Positions 3,570 to 56,110 of a DNA stretch of 64,000 nt are shown in pieces (the first letter of the stretch is position 1; every line of letters begins with the position of its first letter). The translations under genes were made by a program, and so were the position numbers. The notes beneath the pieces were generated by a model. That model had not been told where the DNA came from. It ran no database searches and saw only the letters and a program-made list of their open reading frames with translations. The stretch is from Vallicoccus soli. GTDB taxonomy: Bacteria; Actinomycetota; Actinomycetes; Motilibacterales; Motilibacteraceae. The stretch spans positions 1-64,000 of the forward strand of contig NZ_QZEZ01000006.1 in NCBI RefSeq assembly GCF_003594885.1, in the 5' to 3' direction.

Positions 3570-4094
3570 TCAGGACGGGAGCACGACGACGCGCCGCTGC
3601 GGCTCCTCGCCCTCGGACTCGCTGGTGAGGCCCGCGGCGGCGACCGCGTCGTGGACGATCTTGCGCTCGAACGGCGACATGGGCTCGAGCACGAGACGCT
3701 GCCCGCTCGTGCGCACCTCCTCCGCGGCCCGCCGCCCCCGCTCGGTGAGCTCGGTCCGGCGCGCCGCGCGGTGCCCGGCGATGTCGAGCATCAGGCGGCT
3801 GCGCTCCCCGGTCTGCGCCAGCACCGCCAGCCGAGTCAGCTCCTGCAGCGCCTCCAGGACCTCACCGTCGCGACCGACGAGGTGGCGCAGGTCGCCGCCG
3901 ACGACGCTGACCGCAGCCCGCCCGCCCTCGACGTCCATGTCGATGTCGCCGTCCAGGTCGGCGATGTCGAGCAGGCCCTCCAGGTAGTCGGCCGCCACGT
4001 CGCCCTCGCGCTCGAGGCGCGCGGGGTCGTGGCGGCTGGTGCGGGCGGGGGCCTCGTCGCTCGCGCCGGTGCTCAGCGGGGCCGGGTCCGTCAC
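3570..4094 (-). CDS. jag: Jag/KhpB-family RNA-binding protein (KH-R3H)
   Basis: 174-residue RNA-binding protein of the Jag/KhpB family. The central KH-like region has the GRDGEVLEALQELTRLAV motif around residues 74-92. The C-terminal R3H domain runs from about 105 and contains LEPMSPFERKIVHDAVA, ending in the usual R-R-V-V-V tail. The short acidic N-terminus lacks the Jag_N domain, as usual in actinobacteria. It sits between yidC and rsmG, 8 nt upstream of rsmG. GTG start with AGGAG about 7 nt upstream. Members of the family are linked to envelope biogenesis and post-transcriptional control. Confidence 0.93.
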   Translation of the reverse strand: MTDPAPLSTGASDEAPARTSRHDPARLEREGDVAADYLEGLLDIADLDGDIDMDVEGGRAAVSVVGGDLRHLVGRDGEVLEALQELTRLAVLAQTGERSRLMLDIAGHRAARRTELTERGRRAAEEVRTSGQRLVLEPMSPFERKIVHDAVAAAGLTSESEGEEPQRRVVVLPS

Positions 4095-4261
4095 GGGTGT
4101 CTCCTCGGGTCGTCCGGAGCGGTGGTCCGGGGCCGGTGGTGGTCCGGAGCCGGGCTCCGGTGGTCAGGGGTGCAGCACGACGAGGCGGGCTCGGCGCGCG
4201 GTGCGCGGGCGGGTCCGGCGGACCGCGGACCGAACCGCCCGGGGGCGCGGGGGTCGGGCGC

Positions 4262-5263
4262 TCAGCGCCCCTTGGTGCGCGGGCCCGAGGGCGCCTTGCG
4301 GGCCCCGCCGGGCTGCCGCTTGCCCTTGGTGGTGCGGCGCGGCTGCACGCGCTGGCCCCGCTGGACCTGCCCCGCGTCGGGGGCGCTGCCCGCGTCCGCA
4401 GCCGTCGTCGTGCCGGACCCCGTGGGCACGACGGCCGCGCCGGTGCCGGCCGCGCCGGAGCGCTTCGCCTTGCGCTCGTTGAACCGCTGCTCGGCGAGCG
4501 AGCCGGGCGCCGGCATCCGCGCGATGACGTACAGCTGCTGGAACATGGACCAGATGTTCGTGGTCGTCCAGTAGATGAGCACGCCGATCGGGAAGTTGAT
4601 GCCCGTGACGAGGAAGATCGCCGGGAAGAGGTAGAGCAGGATCTTCTGCTGCTGCGCGAACGGGCCCTCGAGCGAGGCCGCCGGCATGTTCTTCGTCATG
4701 AGCTGGCGCTGCGTGAAGAACATCGCCGCGGACATGAGGACGATGAGGACCGCCGCGACCACCTGCGTGGACGTGCCGTCGGCGCGCAGGAACGTGTCGG
4801 AGATCTGGGCGCCGAAGATCGTCGCGTCCGCCGCGGAGTCCACGAGGTCCTGCGTCATCGCGCCCAGCGCGTTGTCGTTCGCCACGCCGTTGAGGACGCG
4901 GAAGAGCGCGAAGAAGATCGGGGCCTGGAGCAGGATCGGCAGGCAGCTCGCGAGGGGGTTCGTGCCCGTCTCGCGGTAGAGCTTGAGCATCTCCTGGCTC
5001 TGCCGCTCGCGGTCGTTCTTGTACTTCTGCTGCAGCTCCTTGATCTTCGGCTGCAGCAGCTGCATCCCGCGCTGCGACCGGATCTGCTTGACGAAGAGCG
5101 GGATGAGCAGGATCCGGATGACGATGACGAGCCCGACGATCGACAGCGTCCACGACGCACCGCCCGCGGGGTCGAGCCCCAGGGCCGTGAAGAGGCTGTG
5201 GAACTGGACCATGATCCACGAGACGGCCCACTCCAGCGGGCCGAGGAAGGTGGATATGGACAC
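4262..5263 (-). CDS. yidC: Membrane protein insertase YidC/Oxa1
   Basis: Insertase for inner-membrane proteins, acting alone or with SecYEG. The sequence has the Oxa1 hallmarks: an N-terminal segment (SWTLSIVGLVIVIRILLIPLFVKQ) with the conserved arginine of the hydrophilic groove, then the cytosolic coiled hairpin QPKIKELQQKYKNDRERQ, GTNPLASCLPILLQAPIFFALF, and two late membrane helices (LLYLFPAIFLVTGINFPIGVLIYW). The basic C-terminal tail (residues about 255-333, rich in Arg, Lys and Gly) could contact ribosomes. There is no large periplasmic P1 domain, as is normal for Gram-positives. GTG start, 1 nt after the yidD stop. Confidence 0.97.
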   Translation of the reverse strand: MSISTFLGPLEWAVSWIMVQFHSLFTALGLDPAGGASWTLSIVGLVIVIRILLIPLFVKQIRSQRGMQLLQPKIKELQQKYKNDRERQSQEMLKLYRETGTNPLASCLPILLQAPIFFALFRVLNGVANDNALGAMTQDLVDSAADATIFGAQISDTFLRADGTSTQVVAAVLIVLMSAAMFFTQRQLMTKNMPAASLEGPFAQQQKILLYLFPAIFLVTGINFPIGVLIYWTTTNIWSMFQQLYVIARMPAPGSLAEQRFNERKAKRSGAAGTGAAVVPTGSGTTTAADAGSAPDAGQVQRGQRVQPRRTTKGKRQPGGARKAPSGPRTKGR

Positions 5264-6707: not shown

Positions 6708-8336
6708 ATGGCCGACGAGGGCGCCGTACCCGACCTCGGCGGCATCTGGACCCGCGCCCTCACCGGCGAGGACGACGTCCTCACGACGCAGCAGCGCGCC
6801 TTCCTGCGGCTGACCCGCCCGCTGGGCCTCATCGACGACACCGCCCTGGTGGCCGCGCCCAACGACTTCGTCAAGAACAAGCTCGAGCAGGACCTGCGCC
6901 CCGTCGTCACCGACTGGCTGAGCCGCGAGATCGGCCGTGAGCTGCGCCTGGCCGTCACGGTGGACAGCTCGCTCGACCTCGACGCGGCCCCGCGCCCCGA
7001 GCAGCCGGCGGACGGGCGCGCGGAGACCGCGCCCCCGGCGCCCCCGGTGCCCCCGGTGCCCCAGACCCCCGCGCCGCCGGAGCCCCGGACCGCCGCGCCG
7101 GCCCCCGCGGAGCCGGGCCCGTCCCCCGCGACGGCGTCCCACGACCTCGACGGGCCGGGTGCCGGGCCGGCGCCCCGGCACGCGGTAGCGGCGCCGTACG
7201 GGGGTGGCACCCCGGTCGCGGCGCCGGTCGCCGAGGCCTGGGACCCGCGGCCCCTGCGCCCGGGCACCGGACGCGAGCCGGGACGCACCGACGGCGAGCC
7301 GACCCGCCTCAACCCGAAGTACCTCTTCGAGACCTTCGTCATCGGCGCGAGCAACCGCTTCGCCCACGCCGCGGCGGTGGCGGTGGCCGAGGCGCCGGCG
7401 AAGGCGTACAACCCGCTGTTCATCTACGGCGGCTCGGGCCTGGGCAAGACGCACCTGCTGCACGCCATCGGGCACTACGCCCAGAACCTCTTCGGCGCGG
7501 TCAAGGTGCGCTACGTGAGCTCGGAGGAGTTCACGAACGACTTCATCAACTCCATCCGCGACGGCAAGGCGGAGTACTTCCGCCGGCGCTACCGCGACGT
7601 CGACATCCTCCTCGTGGACGACATCCAGTTCCTCGAGAACAAGGAGCAGACGCAGGAGGAGTTCTTCCACACCTTCAACACGCTCCACAACGCCAACAAG
7701 CAGATCGTCATCTCCAGCGACCGGCCGCCGCAGCAGCTCGTCACGCTGGAGGACCGGCTGCGCAACCGGTTCCAGTGGGGCCTGACGACCGACGTCCAGC
7801 CCCCGGAGCTCGAGACGCGGATCGCGATCCTGCGCAAGAAGGCCGCCCAGGACGGGCTCGACGCCCCTCCCGAGGTGCTGGAGTTCATCGCGAGCAAGAT
7901 CGCGACGAACATCCGCGAGCTCGAGGGCGCGCTCATCCGGGTCACGGCGTTCGCGAGCCTCAACCGGCAGAGCGTGGACCTGGCCCTGGCCGAGATCGTC
8001 CTCAAGGACCTCATCCCGGACGACTCGGGCCCGGAGATCACCGCGGCCACGATCATGGCGCAGACGGCGGCGTACTTCAGCCTGTCCATGGAGGACCTCT
8101 GCGGGTCCTCCCGCTCCCGGCAGCTGGTGCAGGCCCGGCAGATCGCCATGTACCTCTGCCGCGAGCTGACGTCGCTGTCGCTGCCGAAGATCGGCCAGCA
8201 GTTCGGCGGGCGCGACCACACGACCGTCATGCACGCGGACAAGAAGATCCGCCAGCAGCTCGGCGAGAAGCGCTCGACGTACAACCAGGTCACCGAGCTG
8301 ACCAACCGGATCAAGTCGCAGGCCCGGCAGTCGTGA
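6708..8336 (+). CDS. dnaA: Chromosomal replication initiator protein DnaA
   Basis: AAA+ initiator that binds DnaA boxes, melts oriC and loads DnaB. Domain I is residues 1-85. Domain II (about 90-190) is a long Pro/Ala-rich linker, as in other high-GC actinobacteria. Domain III has the Walker A motif GGSGLGKT (about 241-248), Walker [10 protein letters not shown] and sensor ISSDRPP. Domain IV ends with the DNA-binding signature [15 protein letters not shown]. Total 542 residues, within the actinobacterial range. ATG start; transcription diverges from rpmH. Confidence 0.98.
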
Positions 8337-8721
8337 CCCCCGGCACCCCCTCGACGGCCCCCGCACCCCGCCCACACCCTGGGGACAACCTTGTGGACCT
8401 CCCCGGCGCGGCGGGGGACGCGGCGGTGGACGGGCGGGACGGCCGGCGCTCGTGCACAGGCACCGGTGCCGCCGCCCCCACCCGCTGCACAGCCGCCGGG
8501 GACGCGCATCGGCTCGCTGACCTGCGGCGACGTGCTCCGTCCCCAGGATCCACGGCCCCTAGGACCACGTCCTCACGGATCTGCCAGGGGGAGCTCAAGG
8601 CCCGTTCCAGGGGACCTGGGGACGTGTGGACGGCGGACCAGGGGCGCAGGACCGCTCGCAGGACCCAGACCCCGACCCAGACCCCGACCCAGATCGACCG
8701 ACGTGCAGGAGGCGGTGACCG
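8337..8721. other. Putative oriC (dnaA-dnaN intergenic region)
   Basis: The 385-bp gap between dnaA and dnaN is the standard oriC position in this phylum. DnaA-box-like sequences are present but degenerate: TGGGGACAA (8380-8388), TGTGGACCT (8392-8400) and TGTGGACGG (8625-8633). I see no perfect TTGTCCACA or TTATCCACA box and no obvious AT-rich unwinding element, which is unusual. The assignment rests on position rather than motif density. Confidence 0.6.
8662..8693. repeat. 12-bp tandem repeat upstream of dnaN
   Basis: GACCCAGACCCC is repeated in tandem 2.7 times between the last DnaA-box-like sequence and dnaN. Confidence 0.85.
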
Positions 8722-14077
<5,356 letters not shown>

Positions 14078-47930: not shown

Positions 47931-47990
47931 CCCGACGCGACGAGACGTTCCATGGCGAACGGTTCAGGCGCCATGCCCGTCTCCATCCCC

Positions 47991-48015
47991 GGCAGGACCG
48001 GGTGGCCGCGCGGTC
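47991..48015 (+). repeat. Dispersed repeat copy a
   Basis: GGCAGGACCGGGTGGCCGCG plus CGGTC. Matches the first, variant unit of the main array (51803-51830) with a few changes. Located between the 3' ends of the ROK gene and the nuclease-like gene. Confidence 0.65.
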
Positions 48016-48040
48016 TTGCGCTCCGCAAGGAGCGTTGACG

Positions 48041-48628
48041 CTAGGGCAGCCGCGTTCCCACTTCCGCACGGAGACGCGATCGACCGCGTTGGTAGGCGGC
48101 TGCTCCGTCTCGGTCTGGGGCATCCGCCCTGACCACGCACGTGGACATCGCGGCGGCGGCGAGGTCCCGCAGCGCGTCGTTGTACGCCCTTTGGCGCTGC
48201 CGCCCTGCCGGCCCGAAGGCCGGCGCTGCTTTCGCGGCTCTGTACTTGTCCGAGCGCGCGGACCACGCACGGCACAGTGCCTTGTAGTGCTCGAGGTCGT
48301 AGCCCAGAGCCACTCCAGCGGGATACATCTCCAAGGTCAGTAGGCGGTAGCTGGTGAAGTGCTGAGGCTCGTCGATCTCCACGAGAACACCGGACTGCGG
48401 CTGCAGGAAGTCGCCCGGCAACGGCGTGAGCCGCTTGCCAGCCTGCTCGGACAGCACCCCGCCGAGTGCCAGGAAGATCCGTTCCAGTACCGGGGTGACG
48501 CTGTCGAGCTCGACGGGTAGCCCGAGGTGGCCGCGCTGATTCAGCCATGGCAACCGACTCCGAACGAGCTCGACCTCGTCCTCGGCCGCCGCCGCAGCGA
48601 AGGCGCGTTCGCAGTCACCGACCGGCAT
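48041..48628 (-). CDS. Hypothetical protein with endonuclease-like EIDxxQHF motif
   Basis: 195 residues from the ATG at 48626-48628. The key segment (about residues 79-120) is SGVLVEIDEPQHFTSYRLLTLEMYP, then GYDLEHYKALC. E-I-D-x-x-Q-H resembles the active-site strand of Vsr/DUF559-type PD-(D/E)XK nucleases, so a nuclease fold is plausible but unproven. Because of a frameshift upstream, this gene appears fused in frame to the end of the recombinase; it is more likely a separate gene, since its family-like region begins after that recombinase's natural stop. No good ribosome-binding site. Confidence 0.6.
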   Translation of the reverse strand: MPVGDCERAFAAAAAEDEVELVRSRLPWLNQRGHLGLPVELDSVTPVLERIFLALGGVLSEQAGKRLTPLPGDFLQPQSGVLVEIDEPQHFTSYRLLTLEMYPAGVALGYDLEHYKALCRAWSARSDKYRAAKAAPAFGPAGRQRQRAYNDALRDLAAAAMSTCVVRADAPDRDGAAAYQRGRSRLRAEVGTRLP

Positions 48629-48740
48629 ATGTGCAGCCTGCCTGAGATCGGGCGTCAGGGCAGGCCGCGGCCGTAAAGGAGTTCCCGGAGCCTCGGCCAG
48701 GCTCAGGTGAGATTGCGCTGCTTCTTCCGGAGTTGCCCCG

Positions 48741-49681
48741 TCAGGTGCCAGAGGACATGTAGGCGGCCAGGATGTAATTCGGGTGGCGGTCGAGGTTCGG
48801 CGGGCGCGGTCGTAGCGCATCGTGGTGCGCGGGTCGGCATGCCGGGCGGCGATCTGCACGTCGCGCAGATCGACGCCAGCGTCGAGCATCGTGGTGACGA
48901 AGGTGTGTCGCAGCATGTGCGGGTGCATCCGCGGGAGCTGCACTCCGGCCGTCCTGGCGAGGGCGCGGAGTCGGCGGGTCGCGGCGTGCCGGTCCATCGC
49001 TCCGTTGCGCGTGTTGCGCAGCAGCGGGCCGGCGTCTCGTCGTGCGGCGGCGCGGTCGACCGCGCGGGCGACGGCTGGCGGCATCGGCACCAGCACGGTC
49101 CTGCCGCCCTTGCCGACGACGCGCAGGACCCGGTGACCGTGCTCCTCGCCGATGTCGCTCAAGCGGAGGCCGCAGGCCTCGAAGACCCGCAGCCCGAGCA
49201 GGCCGAGCAGGCAGACCAGGGCGAAGTCGTTGTCGTTGGTGCTGTCCCTGGCGGTGGCCAGCAGCGCCTCCAGCTGCAGGTGCGACAAGCCGAGCGTGGG
49301 TGACTTGGGCGGGACGCTCGGCCGGCGGACGTACTCGGCCGGCGAGTGCTCGAGTACGCCGTCGATGACACAGGTCCGGTAGAAGCCCGCGAGGACCGAG
49401 AAGCGGCGCGAGACCGTGGACGGGCGGTGGCAGCGCACCTCCTGCATCCACCGCGCGTACAGCTCGAGGTCCACCCGACGCGCAGCGAGCGGGTCCGTCC
49501 CGCGGTCCGCGCACCAGGACAGGTAGATCCTGAGGTCGGACGCGACGTGCGCGCGGGATTCGCCCTTGTACCGCGCGAGGTGCGCCGCCACCGCAAGGCG
49601 CAGCAGTGCTGGGTCAACGCCGAAGTGCTCTTTGAAGTCGTCATGCTCGACAATCCGCCCGCCATGCCGCTGACCGGGCAC
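48741..49681 (-). pseudogene. Tyrosine recombinase/integrase with C-terminal frameshift
   Basis: About 313 residues if read across the shift; GTG start at 49679-49681. SAM-like N-terminal domain (LARYKGESRAHVASDLRIYLSWCADRGTDP), then the catalytic domain with Arg in LGLRVFEACGLRLSDI, HxxR in HPHMLRHTFVTTM, His in AARHADPRTT and nucleophile Tyr in MRYDRAR. Directly after the Tyr the frame changes. The conserved ending PNLDRHPNYILAAYMSSGT-stop is in the +1 frame, ending at 48741, while the original frame runs on into the next gene. One missing base near 48798-48805 explains this. Catalytic residues are all upstream, so partial activity is possible. Confidence 0.8.
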
Positions 49682-49791
49682 GCGCGTGCACGACCAGCGC
49701 GATCGAGCGGCTCGAGTACCCAGGCTCACCGACCGGGGAGGACCGGATGCCCTGGGGACGATGGGAGCGCGCAGGACGAGGAGCCCCCGGA

Positions 49792-49830
49792 CCGCGGCAG
49801 AACCGTGTAGCCGCGCGGACCGCGGCAGGA
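49792..49830 (+). repeat. Dispersed repeat copy b
   Basis: CGCGGCAGAACCGTGTAGCC and then GCGCGGACCGCGGCAGGA. It differs by one base from the leading unit of the main array. Lies in the divergent gap between the recombinase and the small gene at 49849. Confidence 0.8.
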
Positions 49831-49848
49831 GAGTGACCTGCTCGCCTC

Positions 49849-50139
49849 ATGCACGCGGCGCCTGTTGACCCTCGCGACACCTGCTGGGAGGTCGACTCGC
49901 CAGCCTTCCGTGTCTACTTCTGGCAGCAGCCGACCGTGGTTTCCCAGGCCTCGGCGCTGGAGCTTGCCAGGTGGTCGTCGGAGGAGTGGCGCCTCACAGG
50001 ACCTCGTGACGTGAACGAGGTGACCGCGTGGGCCGAGCTGCACCGTGGTGACCGGTCGTACACCCTGCATGTCGAAGTAGAGGGACAAGAAGGTCTGGGC
50101 CTCGTCAAGCTGGCCGGCACGGACCCTACGAGTAGGTAG
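49849..50139 (+). CDS. Hypothetical protein, 96 residues
   Basis: Small alpha/beta protein: CWEVDSPAFRVYFWQQP, ALELARWSSEEWRLTGPRDVNEVTAWAELHRGDRSYTLHVEV and a final GLGLVKLAGTDPTSR. The sequence is balanced in composition and looks genuinely coding, unlike the frames around it. I do not recognise a family. ATG start; flanked by repeat copies on both sides. Confidence 0.65.
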   Translation: MHAAPVDPRDTCWEVDSPAFRVYFWQQPTVVSQASALELARWSSEEWRLTGPRDVNEVTAWAELHRGDRSYTLHVEVEGQEGLGLVKLAGTDPTSR

Positions 50140-50148
50140 GCGCCCTAA

Positions 50149-50190
50149 GAGCGGCAGAACCGGGTGGCCGAGCGGACCGCGGCATGAGCG
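50149..50190 (+). repeat. Dispersed repeat copy c
   Basis: GAGCGGCAGAACCGGGTGGC and then CGAGCGGACCGCGGCATGAGCG, 10 nt after the stop of the 96-residue gene. Same orientation as the other copies. Confidence 0.8.
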
Positions 50191-50332
50191 TGCGTCGTCC
50201 GCCCGCTGCGTCAGCGGCCTGACGCTCAGGTGCCGAAGCGTGGCCAGATCTCAGCCGCAGCGCTCATCCGGCTCGGGACGCCGGGGGGACCGAAACCGGC
50301 CCACCACCGTTGCGCACCCAAGTCCGGGCACC

Positions 50333-50983
50333 ATGGCAGTCATGTCACTGTCGGCACTCCGCAGCGTGTCCGAACTCCGACCCTGCGGCGACCGCCACCT
50401 CGACGACCACCTCGATCCCACCGGCGGCCGGGCCTATTGGACGTACGACCAGCCGAGCGAGCCTGACACGTTGACGCCGCTCGACTGCTTGGCGCCGACG
50501 CTCCTGTCTCTACGCCTGACTTTCGACAACGTCGTCCCGCTCTTCCAGCCCGCTGGGCCGCATGCCGAGCTGCGCCGGTGTATGCAGGCGGTGCTCGATC
50601 TCCCGCCGGTCGATTTTCTCGAACTCGACCTCGCTGACCCCGCCAGCCCATGGGCAACGGTGCGTCGAGCGATGATCGCCTCGGAGCACGTGCCTTGGTG
50701 GACTGCTGTGTCAGTTAGCAAGGTGCTGCATCGAAAGCGACCCGACCTCGTGCCCGTCTACGACAGTCAGGTCTTCGCGTTCTACTTCGGTCGCCCGCCC
50801 AGCGGGCGGGGGGCGCCCGGACGCTTCTGGCCCCGGCTTCAGTCGGATCTTGGGGAACAGTGGGCTCTCGTCGATGCGTGGCGGCACCGTCACCAGCCGC
50901 CCGAAGGCCCGCGGCTCACCCTCCTACGTGTCGCAGACATCGTTATCTGGGAGCACCAGGTAACGGGCTGCTCGGCGGCATAG
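50333..50983 (+). CDS. DUF6308-type hypothetical protein
   Basis: 216 residues from the ATG at 50333 (a second ATG at 50342 is possible). Features: GGRAYWTYDQPSEPDTLTPLDCLAPTLLSLRLTFDNVVPLF, PWATVRRAM, SVSKVLHRKRPDLVPVYDSQV and WALVDAWRHRHQPPEGPRLTLLRVADIVIWEHQ. The pattern (a K-x-x-H-x-K-R-P-x-L-x-P-V-x-D core) fits DUF6308, an actinobacterial family of unknown role related to HhH-containing enzymes. It precedes the second repeat block. Confidence 0.7.
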   Translation: MAVMSLSALRSVSELRPCGDRHLDDHLDPTGGRAYWTYDQPSEPDTLTPLDCLAPTLLSLRLTFDNVVPLFQPAGPHAELRRCMQAVLDLPPVDFLELDLADPASPWATVRRAMIASEHVPWWTAVSVSKVLHRKRPDLVPVYDSQVFAFYFGRPPSGRGAPGRFWPRLQSDLGEQWALVDAWRHRHQPPEGPRLTLLRVADIVIWEHQVTGCSAA

Positions 50984-51016
50984 GACGACCCCAGGGCGAA
51001 GGTGCCGCGGTCGGTC

Positions 51017-51152
51017 GAGCGGCAGAACCGGGCGAGCGTAGCCGCCCGCAGAGCGGCAGAACCGGGCGAGCGGGGCCGCCCTCAACGCGGCAGAACGGGG
51101 TGAGCGGAGCCGCCCTGACCGCGGCAGGACGGGCGGGTGTAGTCGCCCTCAC
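51017..51152 (+). repeat. Four degenerate tandem units of the 34-bp repeat
   Basis: Units start at about 51017, 51051, 51086 and 51120 and diverge from each other by several bases. They share GCGGCAGAACSGGG and AGCCGCCC. Located between the convergent 3' ends of the DUF6308-type gene and the gene at 51242. Confidence 0.85.
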
Positions 51153-51241
51153 GCTGTGAGGATCGTCCTCTTGGCCGAGCCGCGGGGGTTGATGACGAAA
51201 GGGCGACCGCGCTGCGACGCCGTCGATCCGCTTCGTGACGC

Positions 51242-51679
51242 TTAGAGGGTCAGCCGCGCTCGGATCCTGGGGCTGATGTGCACGTCGTGCGGCAGCGCCG
51301 CCAGCTCGCCCGCCTGGACGGGCACCCCCTGCCTGTGCGCGATCTTCGACAGGTGGGCCCAGTGCAGCGCAGCTTCCTCTTCGTAAGAGCGCCCCTCCGG
51401 CGGCTCGTCGGGCCCGACGACCGCGCGCGCGGTCTCCTCCAGCTGTTGCAGCGACAGGTGCGACCAAATGCTGTCGGGGCCGCCAGAGGACCAGCCCCGG
51501 TCGTCGAGGAGGGTGAGCCGCCGCCCGCTGACGAGCTCGAGTTCGAGCAGCGCCGAGATCGACACTTCACGATGCTGATCGAGGGCTGCTTCTGCCGCCT
51601 CATCGAGATCGATGGAGGTGACCAGTCGCCGGGTGTCATGCACGCTCCATCGTGACGGATCGCGCCCGCGCGACGTCAT
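51242..51679 (-). CDS. Hypothetical protein, about 145 residues
   Basis: Contains LVTSIDLDEAAEAALDQHREVSISALLELELVSGRRLTLLDDRGWSSGG, SIWSHLSLQQLEETARAVVGPDEPPEGRSYEEEAALHWAHLSKIAHRQGV, and ends PHDVHISPRIRARLTL. Well-formed helical segments and GC-rich third positions support coding. No family recognised. Start uncertain: ATG at 51677-51679 or GTG at 51641-51643; neither has a clear ribosome-binding site. Confidence 0.65.
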   Translation of the reverse strand: MTSRGRDPSRWSVHDTRRLVTSIDLDEAAEAALDQHREVSISALLELELVSGRRLTLLDDRGWSSGGPDSIWSHLSLQQLEETARAVVGPDEPPEGRSYEEEAALHWAHLSKIAHRQGVPVQAGELAALPHDVHISPRIRARLTL

Positions 51680-51802
51680 CGACGGTGCGACCGGCGGGGC
51701 ACGGGTTGCGCTTGCCGTTCGGGGCGACAGCCACCCCGGCCTTGAGCCGCGGTGAGCCGGCCTCGACCGAGGCAGGGTGTTTGCTGGTGGACACGGTCAC
51801 GA

Positions 51803-52450
51803 CGCGGCAGAACCGGGTAGCCGCGCGGACCGCGGCAGAACCGGGCGAGCGTAGCCGCCCTCAACGCGGCAGAACCGGGCGAGCGTAGCCGCCCTCAACG
51901 CGGCAGAACCGGGCGAGCGTAGCCGCCCTCAACGCGGCAGAACCGGGCGAGCGTAGCCGCCCTCAACGCGGCAGAACCGGGCGAGCGTAGCCGCCCTCAA
52001 CGCGGCAGAACCGGGCGAGCGTAGCCGCCCTCAACGCGGCAGAACCGGGCGAGCGTAGCCGCCCTCAACGCGGCAGAACCGGGCGAGCGTAGCCGCCCTC
52101 AACGCGGCAGAACCGGGCGAGCGTAGCCGCCCTCAACGCGGCAGAACCGGGCGAGCGTAGCCGCCCTCAACGCGGCAGAACCGGGCGAGCGTAGCCGCCC
52201 TCAACGCGGCAGAACCGGGCGAGCGTAGCCGCCCTCAACGCGGCAGAACCGGGCGAGCGTAGCCGCCCTCAACGCGGCAGAACCGGGCGAGCGTAGCCGC
52301 CCTCAACGCGGCAGAACCGGGCGAGCGTAGCCGCCCTCAACGCGGCAGAACCGGGCGAGCGGAGCCGCCCTCAACGCGGCAGAACCGGGCGAGCGGAGCC
52401 GCCCTCAACGCGGCAGAACCGGGCGAGCGGCGGCCGCCCGCAACGCGGCA
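51803..52450 (+). repeat. Tandem array of 34-bp hairpin repeats (about 18 full units)
   Basis: The unit is CGCGGCAGAACCGGGCGAGC followed by GTAGCCGCCCTCAA (34 bp). Units begin at 51831 + 34k. The first 15 (51831-52340) are identical. The next two (52341-52408) change GTAGCC to GGAGCC. The last (52409-52443) has an extra base. A variant 28-bp unit precedes (51803-51830) and a partial unit ends the array. Each unit can fold as GGGCG-A-GC/GTA/GC-CGCCC. The period is not a multiple of 3, so it does not encode a protein repeat. There are no spacers, so it is not a CRISPR. Confidence 0.98.
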
Positions 52451-52503
52451 GTGGTAGCAATTCTCGCCCCGCGCCTATCGCCGATCTCCTGGGTGGTGGG
52501 TGC

Positions 52504-52515
52504 TAGTTTCGCAGC
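52504..52515 (+). promoter_or_regulatory. -10 element of the low-GC two-gene unit
   Basis: TAGTTT (52504-52509) ends 6 nt before the ATG of the next gene and there is no ribosome-binding site, which fits a leaderless transcript starting at the ATG. No clear -35; the array ends about 60 bp upstream. Confidence 0.45.
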
Positions 52516-53283
52516 ATGGTCATTCGGAACGCCAAGCCAGGGAACACGACGTTTCAGTTCGGTGCAGGACCGAAGCATCTGCGAATCAGGAACAGAAGGT
52601 TGTTCCTCGAGGACCTGGAGCGGATCGTGACCATGTTGCGAGAGGACGGAGAGTCCTACTGGAGCAGACTTCCGCTGCGAGAACGACTGCTACTCAGTGC
52701 ACTTCCTAGTAGAGCCCCCTACCGCAGGCCGTTCGATGTCGTCAAGCAGTCTCGTAACCGGATCATCGTGGCAGACTTGGCCGATCTGGTAACCCTGCCT
52801 AAGGATGCGCTCAACAACCTGACCCTGGAGACAACTCGGGTGCGGGTAGAGCTGCACAAGGAGATCGCGCAAGTGATTGTGCAGAACAAAGATGATGCAG
52901 TTGCGATGGCCACGGCTGAGAATAATAAGTCGTACGTTCAGACGCAAACGGATCGGTCCCTGAAGGTTTGGTACTCGGTTCTAGGGCCCGTCGCTTGGTT
53001 TCTGCCCCTCCTTGCGGCGCTATCCATCTTCATGGCGGTCGCCTCGTTCTTCACGACGACGGGGAAGCCTGTTGTCGAGGTGCCCCTCTGGCTCAGTGGC
53101 TTTGCTGCCATGGCGGGTGTCGCCGCCTTCATGAATCACTCTGTGTCGGGGGTGTTGATCGCGCCGTTCAAGCGATCCGAGTTCCGCGCCAACGATACTG
53201 CAAGAAGACGCTGGCGCGTAAGCACGACTGTAGCCGTGACGGCCATCCTCACGGCCGCGACAACGAATCTCATCAACCGGTAG
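52516..53283 (+). CDS. Hypothetical membrane protein (low-GC unit, gene 1)
   Basis: 255 residues. A basic soluble N-terminal region (1-150), predicted helical, includes RRLFLEDLERIVTMLREDGESYWSRLPLRERLLL and a likely coiled segment TRVRVELHKEIAQVIVQNKDDAVAMATAENN. It is followed by three membrane helices: about 151-180 (VLGPVAWFLPLLAALSIFMAV), 190-217 and 234-252. No family recognised. Codon use has many A/T third positions, unlike all neighbours, which points to recent transfer. The next gene starts 15 nt after the stop. Confidence 0.8.
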   Translation: MVIRNAKPGNTTFQFGAGPKHLRIRNRRLFLEDLERIVTMLREDGESYWSRLPLRERLLLSALPSRAPYRRPFDVVKQSRNRIIVADLADLVTLPKDALNNLTLETTRVRVELHKEIAQVIVQNKDDAVAMATAENNKSYVQTQTDRSLKVWYSVLGPVAWFLPLLAALSIFMAVASFFTTTGKPVVEVPLWLSGFAAMAGVAAFMNHSVSGVLIAPFKRSEFRANDTARRRWRVSTTVAVTAILTAATTNLINR

Positions 53284-53298
53284 CCAACGGAGGTTGTC

Positions 53299-54684
53299 GT
53301 GCGACCACGAGTAGCAGCGGTTTGTACGTCCTGCGATCGCTTGCAGGAGAGTAACTTCTCCGAGGGTAACGAGGACCTTGATGCCGAGCTTAGGACGCTG
53401 GTTGTTCGTGTTCCCATCGCGGACTTGCCATGCGCGGAGTGTGGAACGACGACCGTGATCCCACCAGCTCGCTATGAGGTCCACGGGCCGGCTACCTACG
53501 CTTTTGAGCTCGAAGCCACACCCATGACCATGGAGGATCTGCAGCGTCGACGCATCCTATTAGAGAATCAGGAAGACGACTGGCATCCGGCACGCGTTGT
53601 ACGGCTGGTTGGACGTCGGTTGCGGGTGCTGGAGGACCTCAAGCCGCGGAAGTTGAGCACGGCTGAGAAGCGGGAGTGTTGGTCCCGCACACTTCCCGAG
53701 GGTGACGATAACGTACACGACCTTTTGGCCATCAGCCAGACCGTAGAAGCAATTCCATGGCTGGCAGACGCACCCGAGACCATCAGCGAGACCCTGGCAT
53801 CCCTGCCGGAGACCGGGTTGGCGACGTTGCGGGAGAGCCCTCTCCCGCCAGACTGGGGTGACACATACGGCGGGTCAGGGCTCATCGGGGCACGCCGTTT
53901 GGCTAGACGCCGAATTGGTTTGGCTGAAGGTATGCTCGGGGCTCTTGGTGAGGCGCTGGCAGCGAAGCGAGTAAGTGCCATGTTCGCCGTGGCTCGGTCA
54001 GTAGTTGAAATCTCCGCTCTAGCCATGTGGTTGCTGCAACCTGCAGACCTGCGTCTTGTAGCGGCTCGCTACTACGCCGACCGCTGGAGCGGCCTGCGAG
54101 CCGCCGTACTTCTGCGACCTAGCATGAAAGTCGAACTGCAGTCGATAGCTCGCGAGGAAGCCAAAGGACTTGCAGCAGAGGGCTATGACGTCGGTTGGGA
54201 CAAGCAGGAGTGGCCTACTACCCTCGAGAAGCAGGGGAAGGCGAACGCCCTTTCCGCGGTCGAGGCGTGTTTCCCGGATCGGGAGCTTGGCGAGGAGGCC
54301 TACCGCGCGCTGTCGGCCCTCGCACATGGTGAGGAATACGGCCTAGACGACTTCACCGTGGCGCAGGACGCCATGGTGGTGACACTCGAACAGCAATACA
54401 TAATACTTCGGATGGCAGTCTGGCCCTATGGAGTAGCCCTTCACCGCCTAGGAGAGACCATGGGAAGCAGTCCAGCGCCAGCTCTGGCGCAGGTGAATGC
54501 CGTTCTCGAATCCGTGCGGGTTATGCTCGAACGACTGCAGGCCAAGGACGAGAGCGCTTCGTCCGTCGACTCAACAGCACTTCACCCGTCGCCGGCCCAC
54601 GGCGATAGTGCCGGACCAAGGCCTGCGCGTCCCGTTCATGGAAGGAAGAATAGACGCAGGAAGGGGCGGCGTCACAAAGAGTAG
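53299..54684 (+). CDS. Zinc-ribbon protein with HEPN-like R-x6-H motif (low-GC unit, gene 2)
   Basis: 461 residues; GTG start with GGAGG 5 nt upstream. Two CxxC knuckles (Cys9/Cys12 and Cys45/Cys48) suggest an N-terminal zinc ribbon. A helical middle (FAVARSVVEISALAMWLLQP, residues about 230-255) resembles DUF5677/HEPN-like proteins. It is followed by RALSALAHG (Arg336, His343), an R-x6-H arrangement compatible with the HEPN ribonuclease motif. The C-terminus is basic (KNRRRKGRRHKE), possibly nucleic-acid-binding. A toxic RNase role is inference. Low GC like gene 1, so probably one operon. Confidence 0.75.
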   Translation: MRPRVAAVCTSCDRLQESNFSEGNEDLDAELRTLVVRVPIADLPCAECGTTTVIPPARYEVHGPATYAFELEATPMTMEDLQRRRILLENQEDDWHPARVVRLVGRRLRVLEDLKPRKLSTAEKRECWSRTLPEGDDNVHDLLAISQTVEAIPWLADAPETISETLASLPETGLATLRESPLPPDWGDTYGGSGLIGARRLARRRIGLAEGMLGALGEALAAKRVSAMFAVARSVVEISALAMWLLQPADLRLVAARYYADRWSGLRAAVLLRPSMKVELQSIAREEAKGLAAEGYDVGWDKQEWPTTLEKQGKANALSAVEACFPDRELGEEAYRALSALAHGEEYGLDDFTVAQDAMVVTLEQQYIILRMAVWPYGVALHRLGETMGSSPAPALAQVNAVLESVRVMLERLQAKDESASSVDSTALHPSPAHGDSAGPRPARPVHGRKNRRRKGRRHKE

Positions 54685-54715
54685 GTTCTCTCCACTCGAA
54701 TCGGCTCTTCGCTGC

Positions 54716-54847
54716 TGAGTACAGACGCGAGATTAGCTCGCTGATCCGGAGCGGCTCGGTCTCGTAGTTGACCAACCGCAGCCAGTCCGACAGCGCCGCT
54801 TCGACCGGGTCGAGATCGGTGCCGAGCGCCCCCACGAGCCCGATCAC
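54716..54847 (-). pseudogene. Remnant resembling the N-terminus of an anti-phage dCTP deaminase
   Basis: The minus-strand frame reads VIGLVGALGTDLDPVEAALSDWLRLVNYETEPLRISELI, matching the opening strand, G-x-x-G-T-D-L loop and helix of the kinase-like N-terminal domain in anti-phage dCTP deaminases (pattern E-L-V-x-G-L-V-G-x-V-G-T-D-L). Similarity stops after about 44 codons, where the frame runs into the 3' end of the low-GC gene. No deaminase zinc motif is present. Short match, so tentative. Confidence 0.4.
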
Positions 54848-55276
54848 GACCTTGGGCCGCCTGCCGACAATCGCCCGGCCCGTATCCGTGTGACTCCGAG
54901 GCGGGCGGCCTAGAAGCGGCCTGGTGGGTCACTGTCTCCCGTTTTGTCGTCCTGTGTGCCAGCGACAGGTATACGGGACCTAGCGCATAGCGGTCCAGGC
55001 CAAGAGCACATCTAGTAATGCCGGGCTGCCCGCCGTTCGGCGTGCCTCCCTGCTCATGTGCCCAGTGTTGCCGGTCGTTGTGCCAGGCTCTGGTTCGCTG
55101 GCCTGCCAGCGCGAGCCTGTCGCCGACGAGCGATACCGCAACGGCCGCTCATCGGCAGAAGAGGGCGTCGTACCGCGCTTCGCGGCGCGTCCGTCTCGAT
55201 GCAGAACCGAGCAGGGACGGCGGAGCCGCACGGTCCGAGCGGCCGCGGCGTACCCGCCTCGGAGCTCCTGCGCCTG
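54848..55276. other. Gene-free stretch right of the accessory island
   Basis: No frame here has a recognisable motif. 55198-55230 carries a weak echo of the dispersed repeat (GCAGAACCGAGCAGGG, then GGAGCCGC). The GC content rises back to the chromosomal level towards 55200, so this probably marks the island edge. Confidence 0.5.
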
Positions 55277-56110
55277 TCAGCCCGGCGGCGCCGGAGCGAG
55301 GCGAGACGGCCCCAGCGGACGTCGCGAGCAGCCCGCTGCGACCCCGTCGAGCCGCTCGACCCGCGTCCACCCCGTCCACCCCCGCTCCGCGATGAGCTCC
55401 CGCAGCCTCCCGACGGCCGGGTGCGCCTGCTCCGCGAACGAGTCCATGAGCGCGACGAACGCCGGGTCGGGCATGACCTCGTCCTGCAGGGCCAGATGCC
55501 CGCTGGCCGCCGCGCGCTCGTACAGCGCGCACATCCGGTCGGCGATGTCCCGCAGCAGGCCCTCGTCCTGCCCGTCGTCGGCGAGGCGGCCGAGGAGGCC
55601 GTACAGCTCGACGACCTGCGGGTCCTCGAGCTGCGCCACCTTGTCGGCCATCAAGGCGGGGACGGAGTCGGGCCAGCGGGCGGCGACGAGGATCCAGGCG
55701 TCGCGCTCGGCCTGCAGCAGCTGCGGAGGCGCCCCGACCGCGCGGAGCCGGTCGAGGTAGTCGACCACCTCGGCGGGGACGGCCAGGGTGTCGCCGCTGC
55801 GCAGGGCCGCGATGCGCCGCCGGTGCTCCTGCAGCGCGCGGAGCCGCTCGCGCAGCTGCCGGTCGATGTCGGCGGTCGCCTCGGCGAACGTCGCCTCGTC
55901 CGCGTCGAGCAGCTGGCGCACCCGGGCCAGCGGCACGCCCGCCTCGGCCAAGGTGCGGATCCGGATGAGCCGCACGACGGCCGGCGCGTCGTACGCCCGG
56001 TAGCCCGAGCCGTCGCGCTCCGGCTCCGGCAGCAGCCCGACCCGGTGGTAGTGGCGCACCGCCTTCACCGTCACTCCGGTGTAGGCCGCCAGCTGGCCGA
56101 TCGTCAGCAC
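55277..56110 (-). CDS. MerR-family transcriptional regulator
   Basis: 277 residues. N-terminal winged HTH (1-70): LTIGQLAAYTGVTVKAVRHYHRVGLLPEPERDGSGYRAYDAPAVVRLIRIRTLAEAGVPLARVRQLL. Then a dimerisation coiled coil (85-115) and a long all-helical C-terminal region (120-250) that may bind a ligand, as in multidrug-sensing MerR proteins. No cysteine metal site. Last gene of the leftward ABC-transporter operon, 22 nt after the permease, so it probably regulates its own operon. Confidence 0.92.
   Translation of the reverse strand: MLTIGQLAAYTGVTVKAVRHYHRVGLLPEPERDGSGYRAYDAPAVVRLIRIRTLAEAGVPLARVRQLLDADEATFAEATADIDRQLRERLRALQEHRRRIAALRSGDTLAVPAEVVDYLDRLRAVGAPPQLLQAERDAWILVAARWPDSVPALMADKVAQLEDPQVVELYGLLGRLADDGQDEGLLRDIADRMCALYERAAASGHLALQDEVMPDPAFVALMDSFAEQAHPAVGRLRELIAERGWTGWTRVERLDGVAAGCSRRPLGPSRLAPAPPG

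Follow-up and report, generated by a model that had tools for sequence, protein, structure and literature searches.

A low-GC gene pair of Vallicoccus soli as a probable mobile cassette in an integron-like array of actinobacteria

Among the described systems closest to the locus considered here, pdif modules are not known to have a dedicated recombinase gene within the array. Integrons are the best known gene-collecting machines of bacteria, and complete ones were found to be lacking in actinobacteria in a survey with IntegronFinder 2, which reported no complete integron in Actinobacteria (PMC9024848). A review counts the phylum Actinobacteria among those having integrons (PMC8618304), and an integron-like element of Corynebacterium ulcerans was missed by IntegronFinder (PMC12103533). 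Here we analysed a 64,000-nucleotide stretch of the Vallicoccus soli genome (contig NZ_QZEZ01000006.1, positions 1 to 64,000; hereafter the window), in which two adjacent low-GC genes very probably constitute a single mobile cassette, the fourth and last in an integron-like array of actinobacterial type that spans 47990-55167.

Both genes of the pair are encoded on the forward strand, separated by 15 nt: gene 1 (P0001, 52516-53283) specifies 255 amino acids and gene 2 (P0002, 53299-54684, GTG start) specifies 461. As the initial annotation had reported, their composition sets them apart, with GC3 values of 0.71 for gene 1 and 0.64 for gene 2, compared to 0.97-0.98 for the flanking chromosomal genes; local GC around the pair falls to 0.56-0.62. 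We also agree with that annotation that gene 1 encodes a membrane protein, with a soluble N-terminal half followed, toward the C-terminus, by about three hydrophobic stretches (hydrophobicity peaks near residues 159-177, 186-215 and 235-253), and we find the motifs it had listed for gene 2, namely C9-x2-C12 and C45-x2-C48 at the N-terminus, R336-x6-H343 and a basic tail, in addition to a helical core. Of its interpretation, what our analysis supports is a foreign and apparently mobile pair next to a recombinase, in which one gene encodes a membrane protein and the other a zinc-knuckle protein. Its suggestion of a HEPN ribonuclease for gene 2 is not supported (see below), and Pfam gives no support for its dCTP-deaminase-like remnant in the two small minus-strand ORFs adjoining the pair. 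It had overlooked the regular repeats in every intergenic gap and the closing site at 55147.

The left end of the low-GC3 island is marked by a degenerate site, cCGGCAGGACCGGG (47989-48006, + strand), found with one mismatch in a scan for CGGCAGAACCG; GC3 left of this site is 0.98. Between this site and the recombinase lies a DUF7255 gene (48041-48628, - strand; Pfam PF23913, E 6e-12 in a fused ORF). The tyrosine recombinase (48741-49657, - strand; Pfam Phage_integrase, E 8e-26) is divergent from the array, and an attI-like position (49794-49837, + strand) with two cores, at 49794 and 49822, is found ∼140-165 nt upstream of the recombinase match. Then follow cassette A (49822-50150, + strand), with a 96-aa gene of no family (49849-50139); cassette B (50179-51018, + strand), with a DUF6308 gene (Pfam match within ORF 50240-50983); four site copies at 34-bp spacing (51019-51151, + strand); and cassette C (51121-51803), with a 145-aa gene of no family on the minus strand (51242-51679). 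An expanded site (51804-52451, + strand) precedes the pair's cassette (52445-55152, + strand), which is bounded by the cores at 52445 and 55152. The closing site GCTCATCGGCAGAAGAGGGCG (55147-55167, + strand) provides the sole GCTCATCGGCA of the 64-kb window, and the first chromosomal gene past the array is a MerR family gene (55277-56110, - strand, GC3 0.97).

The gaps that part the divergent recombinase, the 96-aa ORF, the DUF6308 gene, the 145-aa ORF and the pair hold short sites in a single orientation, with the core [G/T]CGGCA. The core CGGCAGAACCG has 30 matches in the window (at most one mismatch) versus 3.6 expected, and its exact copies, from 49795 to 52421, are all on the plus strand and all in gaps. 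The exact right arm CGGACG is absent from the 34-bp sites of the window. The site just 5′ of the pair is expanded, its 34-bp unit being repeated 18.6 times (98% matches); in Actinotalea (L078), at least five near-identical units stand directly upstream of the recombinase. The left-arm form GCTCATCGGCA recurs elsewhere, with 44 forward and 8 reverse occurrences and a single one of the control, and a GCGGCA core often follows ∼20 nt later. At the 55147 site, GC is back to chromosomal values; from both flanking sites and this rise in GC, we therefore consider the pair and ∼0.5 kb of 3′ DNA to form one unit of ∼2.7 kb. No second copy of the cassette that carries the pair was found, so the case for its mobility is made by the two flanking sites and by composition.

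Because the layout in the window was that of an integron, the array was tested in loci outside the window. A scan of genome contigs with the recombinase yielded 80 loci at 66-82% identity, almost all in actinomycetes, with genera that include Knoellia, Ornithinimicrobium, Kribbella, Micromonospora, Nocardioides, Tessaracoccus, Kineococcus, Nocardia, Actinomadura and Pimelobacter. Relatives at 70-81% come from the family to which V. soli belongs, the Motilibacteraceae (Motilibacter deserti, G004), and from Nocardioides. Compared to intact relatives, the recombinase of the window shifts frame just past the catalytic Tyr and has its tail in another frame, in agreement with the decay of this gene noted in the initial annotation. 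This copy is probably inactive because it is frameshifted; the frameshift could be either an assembly error or decay.

The sites accompany the recombinase across these loci. GCGGCA or TCGGCA occurs upstream of the recombinase in 50 of the 80 loci, compared to 14 of 80 for the reversed motif. Over the same loci, GCGGCANNNNCGGAYG has 83 forward occurrences, with orientation taken from the recombinase, 9 reverse ones and 4 of the reversed control, while the corresponding numbers for GCGGCANNNNAGTGCG are 23, 4 and 0. The loci that served to derive the site pattern are also those in which it was counted; the reversed control and the strand bias guard only partly against over-fitting, and the cassette homology described below is a further guard. 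Exact forward sites fall within predicted genes in 31 of 126 cases, compared to 152 of 177 for the control and 1297 of 1700 for random points, fractions that are approximate because the gene finder was a simple GC-frame heuristic. The site-to-site interval has a median of 773 bp and most often holds one gene. Exact sites are few in many of the 80 loci, and sites are present on the far side of the recombinase as well. At L064, L067, L072, L074, L094, L124 and others, a left-hand site often falls ∼1.4-1.6 kb past the upstream limit of the recombinase match, as though the recombinase and one gene made up a unit of their own. Pimelobacter simplex (L124) has ∼21 forward sites in 15 kb, including approximate matches, and compound sites with inverted arms. 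At a threshold of E 1e-4, none of the window's cassette genes has a relative in the remaining recombinase loci, nor do the chromosomal genes that flank the array in the window recur around those loci as a conserved block.

An all-against-all comparison of the loci revealed cassettes common to different arrays, with homology bounded by a core at both ends. Nocardioides glacieisoli and N. lacusdianchii (L097 and L100) share an 833 bp cassette at 94.6% and a ∼570 bp cassette at 84%, which are neighbours in one array and separated in the other. Similarly, Ornithinimicrobium tianjinense (L065) and a MAG (L075) have two stretches in common at 95%, between flanks that are unrelated. The MAG contig is labelled Acidobacteria, and with two matches to Ornithinimicrobium at 95% it is probably mis-binned or the product of a recent transfer. 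Second copies of cassettes A and B are present in the V. soli genome itself, on another contig (G000:C4), at 7626-7976 (92%) and 8547-9424 (95.4%), respectively; the right-hand homology of the B copy stops at GCGGCA, and ∼570 bp of different DNA lies between the two copies (L061 7600-9450). No recombinase relative is found in the 16 kb of C4 around them. As these cassettes adjoin the pair, their copies on C4 are the strongest single piece of evidence. We infer that cassettes are exchanged at the sites.

Sequence comparison thus establishes the sites, their orientation bias, their intergenic position, their linkage to recombinase relatives (80 loci) and the site-to-site homology of cassettes that stand in other orders. 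That this recombinase acts at these sites, and the exact point of crossover, we infer. The mechanism that we propose is that a dedicated XerC/D-like tyrosine recombinase, divergently encoded, would recombine short sites with a [G/T]CGGCA core, that cassettes would exit and enter by exchange between two cores, and that insertion would, as in integrons, take place preferentially at the site that lies upstream of the recombinase gene. A competing explanation is that the sites are a dispersed intergenic minisatellite of actinobacteria that accumulates in AT-richer islands beside an unrelated phage-type integrase and has no role in recombination; the 18-copy array at 51804-52451 does resemble a minisatellite. 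However, in dozens of genera the same core accompanies relatives of the recombinase, with a strong orientation bias, and homologous genes are delimited by the core in different contexts, which strongly disfavours this explanation; we regard it as very improbable. It is less remote, although still doubtful, that the array is a true integron of the IntI family with attC hairpins that has diverged in actinobacteria. The layout is the same, with a divergent integrase, an attI-like site and one-gene cassettes in a row, and some compound sites (for instance in Pimelobacter) have inverted outer and inner arms. The folds of compound two-core sites are slightly more favourable than those of shuffles (mean z -0.5 and -0.9, n=20). 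Yet the recombinase reaches 50.6 bits with the integron-integrase model TIGR02249, for which the cut-off is 265, and scores higher with the PRK00283/XerD/XerC models (110-124); the core is [G/T]CGGCA, with no GTTRRRY; and site windows overall fold like shuffles. An attC-like hairpin model was not supported for the sites in general; core windows have a mean z of ∼ -0.1, the same as random.

Gene 2 has no match to any Pfam, NCBIfam, PHROGs or PADLOC model. A weak match in a search of the class, to a 320-aa protein (L008), led to a family of hypothetical proteins that stand alone on actinobacterial plasmids. A profile of ten family members, built without gene 2, recovers gene 2 with E 5e-6 among 15,005 ORFs; the same profile recovers a member in Actinomadura soli (L138) with E 8e-44. 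The latter gene (3975-4826) lies near a related recombinase, past the last recognised site there. Two relatives of gene 2 match DUF5677 (PF18928) weakly (best E 0.0068), and gene 2 itself has no PF18928 match above the gathering score. On these sequence relationships, the core of gene 2 has its relatives in an actinobacterial family of stand-alone proteins close to DUF5677; compared to DUF5677, gene 2 has an additional zinc-knuckle N-terminus and basic tail. Searches with gene 2 by tblastn in plasmids and phages and by pattern scan in genome contigs gave no match, nor did scans that used a single relative or an alignment of two sequences; the full family alignment was too diverse to serve pattern scans. 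PDB sequence searches returned nothing usable. Five matches to residues 171-263 of gene 2, within ORFs of 700-850 aa, were treated as unrelated because they have many mismatches and the C-terminal motif is absent. Gene 1 is an orphan: searches of 394 genomes of the class, of plasmids and of viral contigs found no relative.

The residues that we list for the helical core of gene 2 are R233, E237, W244, R257, S339 and H343; R233, W244, S339 and H343 do not vary in the family alignment, and A242, L246 and R257 hardly do. This conservation bears on the initial annotation, in which R336 and H343 were read as compatible with the HEPN ribonuclease motif and the layout of the pair as one that recurs in abortive infection. 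Across 12 relatives (the alignment and the Actinomadura member), H343 and S339 are kept in 12/12, but position 336 is R in only 5/12, with G, L, H, S or Q in the others, and R-x6-H is therefore not a conserved motif of the family.

What the pair does can be proposed more tentatively than how it arrived. Gene 2 might sense or bind nucleic acid via its zinc knuckles and basic tail and act together with gene 1 at the membrane, and the pair is possibly, although with well under even odds, a membrane-linked stress or phage-defence module. No PADLOC defence model matches either gene. The named products among 126 sampled cassette proteins include acetyltransferases, methyltransferases, hydrolases and glyoxalases, with few PADLOC matches; because the sampled cargo is mixed, carriage in a cassette is by itself no argument for defence. 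The narrower proposal of an abortive-infection system with a HEPN ribonuclease would account for a membrane protein next to a nucleic-acid-binding-looking protein on acquired DNA, and for the invariant H343, but we judge it unlikely: in addition to the poor retention of R336, defence matches are lacking in PADLOC, Pfam, NCBIfam and PHROGs, the distant relatives of gene 2 stand alone, and the cargo of the sampled cassettes is mixed with few defence matches. The AlphaFold models of gene 2 (mean pLDDT 35.8) and gene 1 (mean pLDDT 48) are too poor to give a fold. An equally unlikely reading is that the pair is decaying acquired DNA and not functional cargo, as the frameshift in the recombinase and the lack of close relatives of the pair might suggest; against this, both frames stay open, over 255 codons in gene 1 and 461 in gene 2, the genes lie 15 nt apart, and the invariant residues of the family are retained in gene 2.

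A cassette array accounts for the clustering of small foreign-looking genes in this region and gives the pair a testable origin. We lean toward the broader conclusion that actinobacteria have their own Xer-derived gene-capture platform, independent of IntI, with its own family of sites and a large cassette pool, of which the pair would be one possibly defensive cargo. If so, a large unread pool of cassettes would be present in Nocardioides, Micromonospora, Kribbella, Tessaracoccus, Nocardia and others, and their cargo, for the most part small genes whose functions are diverse or unknown, could be listed by site scanning. No description of this combination of recombinase and sites was found in the open-access literature, a body that leaves most subscription journals and preprints outside, and we call the array an integron-like cassette system that is undescribed in that literature.

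The comparison with known systems places the array near several of them. It shares with the Corynebacterium ulcerans element, by description, an actinobacterial recombinase, a hypothetical gene and cargo (PMC12103533). Like the pdif modules of Acinetobacter (PMC7399989, PMC11705084), it holds genes between short sites that a Xer-type recombinase would move, but pdif modules use the host XerC/XerD; this comparison was made by description. The array has most in common with chromosomal integrons (IntI, attI, attC; PMC8618304, PMC9024848): a divergent tyrosine recombinase with an adjacent attI-like site, a unidirectional row of mostly one-gene cassettes, cassette shuffling, and clusters elsewhere that have no recombinase, here on C4. 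It differs from them in a recombinase that fails the IntI model TIGR02249, in the core [G/T]CGGCA as opposed to GTTRRRY, in a hairpin character that does not appear to be general, and in sites that flank the recombinase on both sides.
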